NCBI GenBank assembly: GCA_027309085.1
Contig: DAIDDL010000006.1
Span: 1-64,000, forward strand
From: Sulfobacillus sp.
GTDB lineage: Bacteria; Bacillota; Sulfobacillia; Sulfobacillales; Sulfobacillaceae
DNA length: 64,000 bases
Direction: 5' to 3'
In this document: positions 27,723-39,948 of the stretch, one piece after another
How positions within the stretch are numbered: the stretch's first letter is position 1
How the letters are laid out: the number at the start of each line of letters is the position of its first letter
Position numbers and translations under genes: made by a program
The notes under the pieces: model-generated
Database searches by the model: none
What the model was told of the DNA's origin: nothing
Seen by the model: only the letters and a program-made list of their open reading frames with translations

Positions 27723-28502
27723 TCAGAGCTGCCGGCCAGCGGCAGCCTTCACCCGTCCTTCAAAAATCGCGCAGAGCATGGCTTGCAGGTCCGGCGCCAT
27801 CTCCCCGTGCAGAACGACCTCTTCCGGCGCCAGAAGCACCAGCGCGCTCACCACCAGTTCTTGCCGGGTGTCTTCGCCGTCGTCCAGATCTTCAGACAAC
27901 GCCTCGATAATCTCCTGGCCGACATCCACCCCGTCGGCATTGGCAATGTTGACCTCATTGTGCCAGCAGCGGACGTGCAGCACATCAGACTGGGGACTCT
28001 GCTGGCGAACATAATCCTTTAAAAATCCTATAAACTGCCGGTATTCCTGTTCCGCAAAGTATTCGTCAATCGCCTGTCCGGCCAGGTCTATCAAGGCCGT
28101 ACGGACGTCACTCAGGGCAAAATCCTCAACGCCCTCAATCACCAAGCTGTCATGGGCCCATAACAACACCGTTAAACTCGCCGCCATGGCATCCATTCGC
28201 TCCTGCGCAGCCCGCTGGCCCTCTCCTTGCAGCAGCGCCATCACCCGGTCCAGCATCAAGCGCCTCTCGGACCGGCTCAGATATGCGTACTGCTGCCGGA
28301 AAATCCTCATCAGCCAGGCATCATAGTGCTGGCTGATGACCTTAGCCACCGCGCGGGCCATCACATACGCTTCCTGGCTGCTGCAGCCTCCCATGTCGCA
28401 CTGAGCCCACCACATTTTAGACTGTTGAACAAATTCCACCGGGGCCGCGAGAAAATCGTCGATCCGGGGGATAAACTCCTGACTCCCAATGCGCCACTGC
28501 AC
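27723..28502 (-). CDS. ytxC: putative sporulation protein YtxC
   Basis: Position upstream of thrS plus weak YtxC-like features (YRQFIGFLKDYVRQQSPQSDVLHVRCWHNEVNIANADG); GTG start after GGGAGGTGAT. Confidence 0.65.
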   Translation of the reverse strand: MQWRIGSQEFIPRIDDFLAAPVEFVQQSKMWWAQCDMGGCSSQEAYVMARAVAKVISQHYDAWLMRIFRQQYAYLSRSERRLMLDRVMALLQGEGQRAAQERMDAMAASLTVLLWAHDSLVIEGVEDFALSDVRTALIDLAGQAIDEYFAEQEYRQFIGFLKDYVRQQSPQSDVLHVRCWHNEVNIANADGVDVGQEIIEALSEDLDDGEDTRQELVVSALVLLAPEEVVLHGEMAPDLQAMLCAIFEGRVKAAAGRQL

Positions 28503-28852
28503 TGCCGTATCACCTCCCAATGATGGTCCCGGAGCGGCTGGCCACCCTTTCCCCCACACCGGGAAGACAGAAACGCGGCCGCCCTTTACGATTTTTTCAC
28601 TCAGACTGCGGCCTCCCTTATATATTGCTAGTATATTCCAGAATTCCTATGGCTATTCATTGAGGACAAAGCTTATAGGCCACCGCCAGCAATCATGCCA
28701 TGATCCTGCACGCTAGACAGTCATGCTCTGACTTTGCCGGTCTTCTATCGCTTGGCGATCTGTCCATTTCTAATCAAATTGGCGACGTGGATGTCAAACA
28801 TAAGCACCGCCGGGCGTTCATTTTCGAGACAGGCGCCATAACCCCCCCCCAA

Positions 28853-28889
28853 TAAAAAAAGAGCCCTCACGAGCATCTAATCAGGACTC
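28853..28889 (-). terminator. intrinsic terminator adjoining tRNA-like remnant
   Basis: Minus strand GAGTCCT...AGGGCTC followed by TTTTTTTATT. Confidence 0.7.
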
Positions 28890-28919
28890 AAATCTCTGAA
28901 CCTCTCGGATGTCAAAAGA
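28882..28919 (-). pseudogene. degenerate partial copy of tRNA-Val(GAC) (anticodon-to-T-arm portion)
   Basis: About 31 of 38 positions match 31134-31171 of intact tRNA-Val, same orientation. Confidence 0.6.
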
Positions 28920-29243
28920 CCCGTGCGGTGTTTCTAGCGTTATCTACAGCATCTAAAATTCTCGGAATCCGGCTCCCTGTCGGCCATTATACGGGCTGGT
29001 AATTAGGCCGCGCTTCCCATAACGTGGCGCTTCTCATAATCTCGTCCATCCATCGCGTAAGATATGGCCCAAACTTTGGGCGCAGCCCTCGGCGGAGACC
29101 TTCCGGCGCCGGCAGGCACCGTATCGCAATGCGGAGTGTCAAGGCGATTATGTAAGGAACGGAGTTATGGAAAGAAGCGGCACCAAACCGACTCACTCCG
29201 CGAGGTACCGCTCGCTTTCTTTGCATAATGCTCAGCGCATTCT

Positions 29244-29895
29244 CTACGACGTGGTAGCGCATAACCGATCGAGCCATGGCAGCAGTCCCTGATCTTCGGT
29301 CCAGGACACTCCCGGGGATGGAATCCCCGGGAATTGAGCGGACTCAACGGCTTGGCGTCGTCGCTCCACATCCACTCGGGCATAAATTTGGGTCGTCGAT
29401 ACGTCCGCATGGCCCAGCAGATCGCGAATGTAAATTAAATTGACTCCCACCTGTAAGAGATGAACGGCCTTGGAGTGCCGGAGCACATGCGGCGTCACCG
29501 ATTCCGGGAATCCTCCGATGCCCTGGGCTTGGGCGCGCTGCACATATTTTTGAAGAATGTAGGTGATGCCCACCCGTGTAAAGGGCCTATGCTGGGCATT
29601 ATAAAAGACGGGGTGGTCCATCTGTTCACCGCGTCGAAGACCACGGCCGGCGTCTCTAATCGGATATCGCGGACCACCACATCGATCCACTCTTGCACCC
29701 GGGTGCCCGTATCATACAGGAAGGCGAGCAGGGTCGCATCCCGGCGCCCTTTAGCCGTGGTCCGGTCCGGTTGCGGATACGGCACCAACGGCTGTGCGGT
29801 TTTTTTTCACGGAATGGTCAGGAGGTGTTGCACGGTCTCCAAGAATTCCGGGGCCTCGTACGAGACCCACCGGAAGAATGCCCGCAAAGTGAATC
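29244..29895 (-). pseudogene. truncated, frameshifted tyrosine recombinase (XerC/D-like)
   Basis: Fragments in several frames: LRAFFRWVSYEAPEFLETVQHLLTIP / [31 protein letters not shown] / [67 protein letters not shown]. Confidence 0.85.
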
Positions 29896-30422
29896 CTTAC
29901 AAGGATTCGTGGACCAACGGCTGAGCCGACGATTGTGGAATTCTTTCCACAACCGTCGCGCCCGTCAATGCGCTGAACACTTCCGGCACGATTGCGGAGG
30001 TGTTGGGGATGGAGCCAGGTCTGTATATCGCAGGGGGAGGTCGTCCCCGGGGGGGATCCTTACAAGGATTCGTGGGCTGGGTAACGCCTAAGACACTTCC
30101 GGAATTTTTTCCGGAAGTGTCTTGCTTTCTGTGCCCCGCATTTTGCCATCTGCGCAAACAACAACAGCCCGCTTGTCCAAGGCGGGCTAGAAGATGGAAA
30201 ACATTTATACAAGCATATTCATTATCGCTCGGTCTGCGCCCGCTGTTCAGCTCTCCGCCATAGTTTTTTTGTGTGGGGGCGGTGACTTGGGGTGTATCCG
30301 AGCAAACGAAGCCTTGCAAGGATTCACGGGCCGGGAGTCCCCACCCAGTGCAGAGCGCCCCGGCACCCAGACGCACCATAGCCCGCCTCTGAAGAGACGG
30401 GCTATAATGGCGGTGAGGGTAC

Positions 30423-30457
30423 GCCCCTTGGGTGACCTCCGAAAGGAGGTGAGGGGC
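30423..30457 (+). promoter_or_regulatory. two-tier hairpin sequestering a Shine-Dalgarno
   Basis: Outer stem GCCCCT/AGGGGC, inner stem ACCTCC-GAAA-GGAGGT, 2 nt before ATG at 30460. Confidence 0.75.
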
Positions 30458-30459
30458 TT

Positions 30460-30555
30460 ATGCACATTCAGATGACGATAACGCTGGCGAGTGCTATCAA
30501 GTTGTATCTGATGTGGCGTATCTCACGGCGTCATCTTGACCGACACCACAGATAA
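30460..30555 (+). CDS. candidate 31-aa peptide (type I toxin-like or leader peptide)
   Basis: MHIQMTITLASAIKLYLMWRISRRHLDRHHR; hydrophobic segment then basic tail; SD GGAGG 10-15 nt upstream. Confidence 0.45.
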   Translation: MHIQMTITLASAIKLYLMWRISRRHLDRHHR

Positions 30556-31089
30556 CGGCCCTCACTTCCCGCCCCTGTTTACGCAAGGGCGGGTCTTGCT
30601 TATAATATACGCCCATGCGGTGGACTATGCAAAGAGGCTGGTGGCTTATCGGCGTGTCTCCGGGCAAACGAAGTTTTGCAAGGATTCGCGGGCCGGGAAG
30701 ACGGGACTGGCGACCTGCTAGTGAACGCCCCGCCACTGGGGGAGGATAGCTTGTGGAATTATTGCCACAAGCTATTGGCGGGTGAAGCCTTGCAAGGATC
30801 CATTTGCCCGGAAGACCAGACTGTTGTTCGCGAGGTCTTTGACCGCCCTTCGTGGGGATGGTTGGGGATGGCCGCTGTGGGTAACTGTGGCACAACGAGA
30901 AACTGTCCCATGATGTGCAGTTCCGTTGTGGAGAAACCCGTGGCGCCCCCGAAAAAATTTTTCTCGTGGCGGTTCCGGTTTTTTCTACGCCGCGTAACGC
31001 GTTGACCGCTTCCGTATCGTTCTGTACGCGGGTTCGCAGGGATGAAAGTGGGATGACGGCGAGTTTGAGGCCGGCGCAAAAGTAAAAAA

Positions 31090-31110
31090 CCCCTGAAAAT
31101 AACTCAGGGC
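31090..31110 (-). terminator. intrinsic terminator of the Gly-Cys-Val tRNA cluster
   Basis: Minus strand CCCTGAGTTATTTTCAGGGG followed by TTTTTT. Confidence 0.8.
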
Positions 31111-31121
31111 TTCGAAATTTA

Positions 31122-31199
31122 TGGTGGGCGGTACAGGACTCGAACCTGTGAACCTCTCGCATGTCAAGCGAGCGCTCTAACCAACTGAGCTAACCACCC
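31122..31199 (-). tRNA. tRNA-Val(GAC)
   Basis: Cloverleaf with anticodon loop TTGACAT, GGTTCGAGTCC T-arm, encoded CCA. Confidence 0.95.
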
Positions 31200-31208
31200 A
31201 CGTCAAAT

Positions 31209-31283
<75 letters not shown>

Positions 31284-31303
31284 TTATAATCAAGGCGGCA
31301 GAA

Positions 31304-31378
31304 TGGAGCGGAAGACGGGATTTGAACCCGCGACCCTTGCCTTGGCAAGGCAATGCTCTACCACTGAGCTACTTCCGC
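31304..31378 (-). tRNA. tRNA-Gly(GCC)
   Basis: Cloverleaf, anticodon loop TTGCCAA, encoded CCA. Confidence 0.95.
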
Positions 31379-35308: not shown

Positions 35309-35327
35309 CCCGGAAAGAAATTCCGGG
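35309..35327 (-). repeat. hairpin resembling the AATTNTT-loop hairpins of the 30-kb island
   Basis: Minus strand CCCGG-AATTTCTTT-CCGGG. Confidence 0.5.
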
Positions 35328-35414: not shown

Positions 35415-35490
<76 letters not shown>

Positions 35491-35494
35491 GTTA

Positions 35495-35572
35495 TGGCGG
35501 AGGCGACGGGATTCGAACCCGTGGTCTCATGCGTGACAGGCATGCGTGTTGGGCCAACTACACCACGCCTCC
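35495..35572 (-). tRNA. tRNA-Asp(GTC), copy 1
   Basis: Cloverleaf, anticodon loop CTGTCAC, encoded CCA. Confidence 0.94.
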
Positions 35573-35743
35573 GCTTCAACTTTTTAATTATCCTAAAATT
35601 ATCGGCATTTGTCAAGCTATATTTCAATATCCATGCGGTTGGTATAGTCCGCTCCGGAAGCAATATTTCCAACCTGCCCAAACTTCTGAGGGCAATAGGG
35701 ATTCGATTCCTCTGAGTCAGTTCCCCTACGATTGACACTGCCA

Positions 35744-35911
35744 CTAGGGAGCCTCAGCCGCATCCATATATGAGAGCGGGTCAATCGCCGGAATGTCGAA
35801 CATGGGCTCCGCACACGCCCCAGCTTCCCCCAATAGGCGCGGCACCGGGGGGAAAACCTCAGTGCGCCCGGTGAAGTCCAAGGTTCGCTCTCGCTCCCTA
35901 TTATATTTCAT
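35744..35911 (-). CDS. hypothetical 55-aa protein between the duplicated tRNA cassettes
   Basis: ATG start at 35911: MKYNRERERTLDFTGRTEVFPPVPRLLGEAGACAEPMFDIPAIDPLSYMDAAEAP; weak RBS. Confidence 0.35.
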   Translation of the reverse strand: MKYNRERERTLDFTGRTEVFPPVPRLLGEAGACAEPMFDIPAIDPLSYMDAAEAP

Positions 35912-35940
35912 TGGCCACGGGCCTTCCCGCGTCACAAAAA

Positions 35941-35968
35941 AGAAAAAACCCTGCATCGGTTTGCAGGG
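35941..35968 (-). terminator. intrinsic terminator of tRNA cassette 2
   Basis: Minus strand CCCTGCAAACCGATGCAGGG then TTTTTTCTTTTTT. Confidence 0.8.
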
Positions 35969-35982
35969 TCTAAAATTTTTTA

Positions 35983-36058
<76 letters not shown>

Positions 36059-36063
36059 ATATA

Positions 36064-36141
36064 TGGCGGAGGCGACGGGATTCGAACCCGTGGTCTCATG
36101 CGTGACAGGCATGCGTGTTGGGCCAACTACACCACGCCTCC
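36064..36141 (-). tRNA. tRNA-Asp(GTC), copy 2
   Basis: Same sequence as copy 1. Confidence 0.94.
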
Positions 36142-39629: not shown

Positions 39630-39903
39630 TTCTCCTTCCCCCTTACGGGGCTTGTGGCGCGAGCCTCGCGGCCCGGCTCCCCTCGGGAATGTCTGCAACC
39701 GGCTCTCACCTTACGGTGACGACGGAAACCTTCGGCGCTTTCCCTTTCGCCCACATGAGTCCCGCCTTCCAGTGTCCGGGACTGAGGAAGCATCCTGGAG
39801 TGGGTCGGGGCGACCTGCTGCAAACAGAGCAGATTGACGACAGCTTTCCCTGGTCAACCCAGCCTGTGTTCACAAGCTCCGCCCTTCAGGGCGGGGTAGT
39901 TGA
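39630..39903 (-). ncRNA. candidate IscB-associated omega RNA / HEARO RNA
   Basis: GTCAACTACCCCGCCCTGAAGGGCGGAGCTTG 5' hairpin, then CCAGGATGCTTCCTCAGTCCCGGACACTGGAAGGCGGGACTCATGTGGGCGAAAG..GGTTTCCGTCGTCACCGTAAGGTGAGAGCCGG..GCCCCGTAAGGGG immediately 5' of the IscB remnant. Confidence 0.7.
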
Positions 39904-39948
39904 CGGCATTCTCTCCCTTTTGCTCCCCTTGTAGTCACCCTGCCAGCC

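Follow-up and report, generated by a model that had tools for sequence, protein, structure and literature searches.

What keeps a set of hairpins self-complementary while the sequences of their stems differ? Three hairpins in the window, i.e. the whole Sulfobacillus sp. stretch of 64,000 nucleotides that was analysed, raise this question. They lie in a non-coding stretch of about 1.2 kb on the 3' side of a tRNA-Val cluster and adjoin a broken tyrosine-integrase gene. Save for a possible open reading frame of 31 aa, this stretch is without coding sequence. Its features are:

28987-29788, minus strand: broken tyrosine integrase gene, a relic in two or three frames (Phage_integrase, PF00589)
29891-29908, no strand assigned: second palindromic repeat GAATCCTTACAAGGATTC, copy 1
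30054-30071, 30308-30325, 30670-30687 and 30784-30801: further window copies of the second palindromic repeat
29926-29959, plus strand: hairpin h1, CGACGaTTGTGGAA-TTCT-TTCCACAAcCGTCG, 13 of 14 pairs, found from the sequence
30090-30123, plus strand: hairpin h2, AAGACACTTCCGGAA-TTTT-TTCCGGAAGTGTCTT, perfect 15-bp arms
30746-30775, plus strand: hairpin h3, ATAGCTTGTGG-AATTATTG-CCACAAGCTAT
31026-31112, minus strand: conserved post-tRNA block, the terminator of the tRNA cluster followed by CATCCC(C)AC-type repeats, with similar blocks 3' of other tRNAs
31122-31378, minus strand: tRNA-Gly, tRNA-Cys and tRNA-Val cluster (ARAGORN, Rfam), its 3' side toward the hairpins

The hairpins had been proposed in a sequence-only reading of the window; they are real, and their letters were found where it had placed them. 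All three are inverted repeats around TTNT, h3 reading ATAGCTTGTGGAA-TTAT-TGCCACAAGCTAT from the centre outward with one A.G pair. Folding as single-stranded DNA gave z-scores against shuffled sequences of -6.4 for h1, -9.1 for h2 and -6.9 for h3. The boundaries between stem and loop had to be redrawn. The stem of h1, which had been started at 29933, is longer, with 29927-29958 pairing at 13 of 14 positions around TTCT (one A.C mismatch). The AA and TT that had been assigned to the loop pair with each other in two of the three hairpins, leaving a 4-nt loop (TTCT, TTTT), while the third has A.G there. The hairpins are better described as inverted repeats with arms of 11-15 bp, usually a 4-nt centre, and the core STTNNGSMA-N4-TKSCNNAAS. 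Conservation is not confined to the loop; it extends to TT/AA seven and eight pairs out and to G-C at pair 4, and the 4-nt centre itself varies (TTCT, TTTT and TTAT here; AAAA, AATT, GATC and CATG elsewhere). A suggested fourth copy on the minus strand at 35309-35327 is exact in its letters, but with a 7-bp stem, a 5-nt loop, a z-score of -3.0, no conserved outer TT/AA and no covariance-model match at E<=5 we did not count it. The 12-mer GGAATTNTTKCC is present three times in the window against 0.08 copies expected from dinucleotide shuffles. The bare 12-mer is not diagnostic, with 16 copies in the genome (reversed control 0), and it was rejected as a family marker on its own because 11 of the 13 copies outside the window have stems of at most 3 bp.

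The surroundings of the hairpins point to integration beside tRNA genes. PF00589 matched the integrase relic at 29244-29690 (E 2.1e-15) and, in another frame, at 29495-29788 (E 0.007); no PF00589 match was found in 28987-29277. A paralogous stretch on contig C84 of the same genome (G000) adjoins a 3' fragment of tRNA-Lys and an integrase gene, which is split into two open reading frames and carries an Arm-DNA-bind domain. The tRNA-Lys fragment is flanked on both sides by CATCC(C/A)CAC-type direct repeats. We take the CATCCC(C)AC-type repeats to be putative integrase arm sites; read in this way, they would place the hairpins at integration sites of mobile elements. Post-tRNA blocks like that at 31026-31112 also follow tRNAs on contigs C81, C84, C91, C77, C82 and C139 (88k). 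C84 carries two hairpins, a copy of h3 (ATAGCTTATGG-CATTATTG-CCACAAGCTAT) and another whose stem is new but whose centre is again TTAT. We show that the five copies of this genome are divided between two paralogous non-coding stretches, both of which lie 3' of tRNA sequence and adjoin integrase sequence. Several whole hairpins differ between the window and the C84 stretch. These differences had suggested a long structured RNA on the tRNA side, an idea that was dropped because wobble pairs are lacking in the wider family and Rfam gave no match. BLASTN of the hairpin region against phage and plasmid records gave no match.

Several other repeats were seen in the same neighbourhood. The second palindromic repeat GAAKCCTTRCAAGGATTC also occurs at C139:88134 and 88352, on C84, at C91:42579 and at C81:57654, and across the genome its good matches are almost confined to the first 1.3 kb or so on the 3' side of tRNA genes. 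The conserved block that follows the tRNA terminator and contains repeats of CATCCCCAC and AACCAGCG was seen at tRNAs on C139 (31k, 88k), C91, C81, C77, C82, C84, C172 and C66 and is common to unrelated tRNA genes; these repeats are possibly the arm sites of an integrase family. Positions 30369-30600 form a multi-copy element that is also present in relatives. It has a perfect Shine-Dalgarno sequence inside the hairpin ACCTCC-GAAA-GGAGGT (30435-30450) and a 31-aa open reading frame at 30460-30555, MHIQMTITLASAIKLYLMWRISRRHLDRHHR, which has no Pfam match; the element looks like a type I toxin-type locus. Elsewhere in the window a tRNA-Phe/tRNA-Asp pair is duplicated at 35415-36141 with 568-bp spacing and identical tRNA-Asp copies, and a HEARO RNA scores above its gathering score at 39671-39904 on the minus strand.

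We built a covariance model (R1) from the five hairpins of this genome only, three from the window and two from C84. They align without gaps, and all have complementary arms with the core A-M-S-G-NN-T-T outward from the 4-nt centre. Mismatches are restricted to pair 2 in h3 (A.G), pair 9 in h1 (A.C) and pair 6 in the C84 copy of h3 (A.C). Nine of the 13 pairs change on both sides and none is a wobble pair; since both-sided changes are expected in any set of hairpins, independent tests are needed. The score of h1 (42.9 bits) is high by construction, h1 being part of the training set. In 61 genomes R1 found few strong matches (G035, G026, G027, G001 and G032). That in G035 is intergenic, and that in G026 lies on a plasmid-like contig, close to iteron-like repeats and to two genes, one of the DUF927 primase type and one ParM-like. 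Those in G001 and G027 fall in an element with a VirD4/TraG-type gene, where similar palindromes form an array; the array is intergenic and holds about eight copies of TTCCGG(C)AA-N-TTCCGG(G)AA, as noted at L113 7610-8060 (G001:C79) and at L112 (G027:C66). In G032, and in the genome studied here on contig C55, the match is inside a gene with ParB_N and Dam methyltransferase domains. An intergenic reading of the C55 copy was ruled out by this position.

Is the ParB-like gene a coincidence? Exact-pattern scans of viral and genome collections returned, among the matches listed, mostly chance or unrelated hairpins. Among the viral matches listed, ParB-like genes hosted most of those whose complementary arms were longest (at least seven such contigs), which is only a lead since these contigs were picked by the palindrome pattern itself. 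An excess of full-arm matches among the viral contigs listed is likewise no more than a lead. The C55 ParB gene as a single-protein query against viral contigs found nothing. An unbiased set was obtained with an alignment of six ParB-like modules (A3): 80 viral loci were collected, with similarity of the protein as the sole criterion. When R1 was run on 67 viral loci chosen in this way (334 kb), it gave 61 matches at E<1 in about 40 of the 67, all of them at the linker between ParB_N and the helix-turn-helix, and none elsewhere at this threshold. Perfect linker palindromes with arms of at least 8 bp are present in 35 of 63 non-redundant ParB-like genes, compared with two of 63 in an upstream control from the same genes that was slightly longer (240 nt) than the linker window (204 nt). 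Against synonymous shuffling 31 of the 63 reach p<=0.005, and palindromes with a 4-nt centre and arms of at least 9 bp number 34 in 16 kb of linker versus nine in 317 kb elsewhere. Many of the 63 genes are without a clear palindrome, and none was seen in short-linker ParB-like genes from Pseudomonas-type plasmids.

The 71 distinct linker palindromes give the core STTNNGSMA-N4-TKSCNNAAS, in which NN and the outer positions are free but matched; 31 of them have the full core, and arms in the family are 11-15 bp, up to 21. The 8-bp half-site TTCCGGAA of h2 is also the half-site of many phage linker palindromes. Among named complete records, the Streptomyces caniferus plasmid NZ_CP108074 carries a linker palindrome and Corynebacterium phage phi16 a weaker one. 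The ParB-like proteins end in Dam, MT-A70, N6_N4_Mtase or DUF4326 domains, and neighbouring genes match O-like initiator, primase, DNA helicase, ParM-like and ParB-like families. A second copy of a gene's own palindrome was not found within a few kb around the gene. In the open-access PMC literature we found no description of this pattern, and the DNA-level signal inside phage ParB-like genes appears to be undescribed there.

It could be argued that the window hairpins resemble the linker palindromes by chance. The only clear ParB-like gene of this genome is the one on C55, none lies near the window or C84 copies, and no ParB-like remnant was found in the window or the C84 stretch. Furthermore, chance produces short palindromes such as TTCCGGAA repeatedly, and the core matches listed from databases include terminators and unrelated genes. 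We nevertheless consider a chance likeness quite unlikely: all five hairpins fit the six defined positions A, M, S, G and TT, for which we estimate about 1 in 1000 per random hairpin, every R1 match at E<1 in the 334 kb is at a linker, and perfect palindromes that lack the core (L405, L411) are not matched by it.

With homologues at hand, the claim that the stems differ but remain complementary proves right and general. Trained on the window and C84 copies, R1 brings in more homologues whose pairs have changed in a compensatory way; the covariation is real, and its range goes far beyond what the window by itself could reveal. Since the helix centre was chosen for maximal pairing, the percentage of paired positions is not evidence, and we rely on comparison of relatives. 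We compared 78 pairs of genes whose ParB_N parts are at least 75% identical in DNA. Where a pair position had changed, the change was compensated in 270 cases, one-sided in 35 and uncompensated on both sides in 23, counts that are not independent as the gene pairs share sequences. In the A5 family, whose proteins are 80-90% identical, all changes are compensated: the arms CCAGCTTCTTGCC-gatc-, CCAGCTTGTGGCC-gatc-, CCAGCTTTTGGCC-aatt-, CCAGCCTTTGTCA-aatt- and CCAGCCTCTTGCC-catg- document an almost complete change of the palindrome, while the helix-turn-helix hardly changes. Between L161 and L240 (protein 92% identical) TTCCGG has become TTGTGG with the matching change opposite; these are the half-sites of h2 and of h1/h3, respectively. 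These comparisons show that, judged from sequence, the linker palindrome stays self-complementary while changing very fast.

Such a pattern could also arise if short palindromic cassettes, of a kind with Rickettsia palindromic elements, were inserted or swapped whole, in frame in the tolerant linkers of ParB-like genes and freely in non-coding tRNA-side islands. Palindromes do differ between close genes, where hardly any one-sided intermediates are seen; hairpins are either there in full or missing in full when the window is compared with C84; and the linker starts HGGTAPGK, TSTGGxxPQL, RTDL and RGGQGGVLL recur across distant ParB-like proteins. Among these starts, TAPGK was noted in L366, L396, L381, L383 and L401, and TSTGG in L374, L405 and L417. 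The exchange of cassettes is however unlikely, if still worth serious attention, given that the arms share too little sequence for copies of one element, that position and usually codon phase are constant, and that L161/L240, L405/L406 and L395/L423 show a few paired substitutions instead of replacement. Hairpin-templated repair that copies one arm onto the other would keep the repeat perfect without any selection for symmetry, and the rarity of one-sided changes and a symmetry that runs through the centre (GATC, AATT, CATG) agree with it. It does not account for the constant position between two domains, for a spacing of 4 nt or for the conserved A, G and TT, and the loops of other palindromes in these contigs vary in size; we regard this mutational effect as distinctly improbable.

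The hairpins had been attributed to a selected RNA or single-stranded DNA structure. An RNA hairpin in a transcript, e.g. an RNase III site, a regulator or a terminator-like element, would account for the strong stems, and a loose terminator scan flagged h2 (30090-30123), only with the tail CTTTCTGTGC; h1 and h3 were not flagged. The three hairpins are poor matches to intrinsic terminators: the G+C-rich stem followed by a T run is not seen, a proper T tract is absent, and many homologues are inside open reading frames. Rfam 15 over 28000-31150 gave no match, even at E<=5, save the tRNA end and sub-threshold noise. On the ParB-like coding strand G.T accounts for four and A.C for 11 of 799 pairs, i.e. 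there is no wobble excess. The palindrome occurs in coding genes in both orientations, being reversed in L173/L366 (PEFFPE instead of PEKIPE), and the centres are themselves palindromic in 19 of 71 cases (about four expected). With no excess of G.T over A.C, free orientation and often palindromic centres, the symmetry looks like a feature of DNA, a dyad rather than an RNA hairpin, and the RNA reading is very improbable. Low wobble and palindromic centres fit a duplex dyad or an extruded cruciform. Nor is one peptide maintained: the linker often reads [PV][EQ]KI[PA][EQ], while PEFFPE, LEENFPQ, LPQLIGE and LLADRQEA are encoded by equally perfect palindromes. As far as the aligned letters tell, this shows a palindrome constrained as DNA rather than as peptide or RNA, and the ParB-linker pattern points to a function at the level of DNA.

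What could this function be? The palindrome pattern is solid; the mechanism we infer. Our tentative preference, held with somewhat less than even confidence, is that the hairpins are dyad-symmetric DNA sites of mobile elements, putatively cis-acting in replication or partition, which in this genome were left at tRNA integration sites. The palindrome would be the cis-acting site of the element's replication/partition module, placed inside the module's own gene, a reading favoured by the replication and partition genes in its neighbourhood. A dimer may read the symmetric duplex or the extruded hairpin, with few bases read directly, and the window copies would be sites or remnants of elements once integrated at the tRNA. 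Because no ParB-like gene lies near them, shared form is all that links the window copies to such elements. The strongest objection to a cis-acting site is that the helix-turn-helix is nearly constant while the palindrome changes. In the A5 family this means that ordinary sequence-specific binding by that domain is no explanation; the palindrome may be recognised by its structure more than by its letters, it may be read by a different protein, or it may be swapped or rewritten whole. A related and more doubtful possibility is that the linker palindromes and the free-standing ones are DNA elements in which only symmetry counts, serving as a fast-changing identity mark (incompatibility, self/non-self, superinfection type) or being rewritten by hairpin-copying.

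Phages commonly encode ParB-like/methyltransferase proteins. Should the palindrome serve in replication or partition, phages and plasmids of many lineages would gain a recognisable cis-element, and the finding of their origins or centromeres would become testable. If it is an identity mark, it would reveal a fast-evolving incompatibility or self-recognition system. As the putative integrated relics in the window keep palindromic sites outside the gene, such palindromes could mark past integration beside tRNA genes.

A comparison with known systems reveals partial likenesses. One such system is parS, the centromere site of ParB proteins, found e.g. inside Bacillus subtilis spo0J. Like parS, the linker palindrome is a palindromic DNA site that can sit inside a parB gene, and its host genes encode a ParB N-terminal domain and a helix-turn-helix. 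However, parS has a conserved sequence that lacks a 4-nt spacer, whereas the arms here are hypervariable beside a near-constant helix-turn-helix and second copies were not found nearby. A conserved half-site read by the helix-turn-helix is not what we see, as the A5 arms vary almost completely. The ori-lambda origin has several iterons and an A+T-rich region. It lies within gene O of lambdoid phages (PMC6022878). The likeness would be a cis-acting site inside a gene of the replication module, and several ParB-like genes here adjoin O-like, primase or helicase genes; the difference is a single palindrome in a ParB-like gene, to which a DNA methyltransferase is in many cases fused. REP/RAYT and the ends of IS200/IS605 also provide hairpins in the non-coding DNA of mobile elements; there the stem sequence is conserved, while the arms here vary. 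Target hairpins of DGRs and integron attC sites are alike in keeping structure while stem sequence varies; attC sites have R/L boxes and extrahelical bases, and DGRs have VR/TR repeats and a reverse transcriptase, none of which was noticed here. Rickettsia palindromic elements share the in-frame position within protein-coding genes, and related copies of them are spread over many genes; the palindromes described here differ in forming one class of site with free arm sequence and a fixed 4-nt centre.
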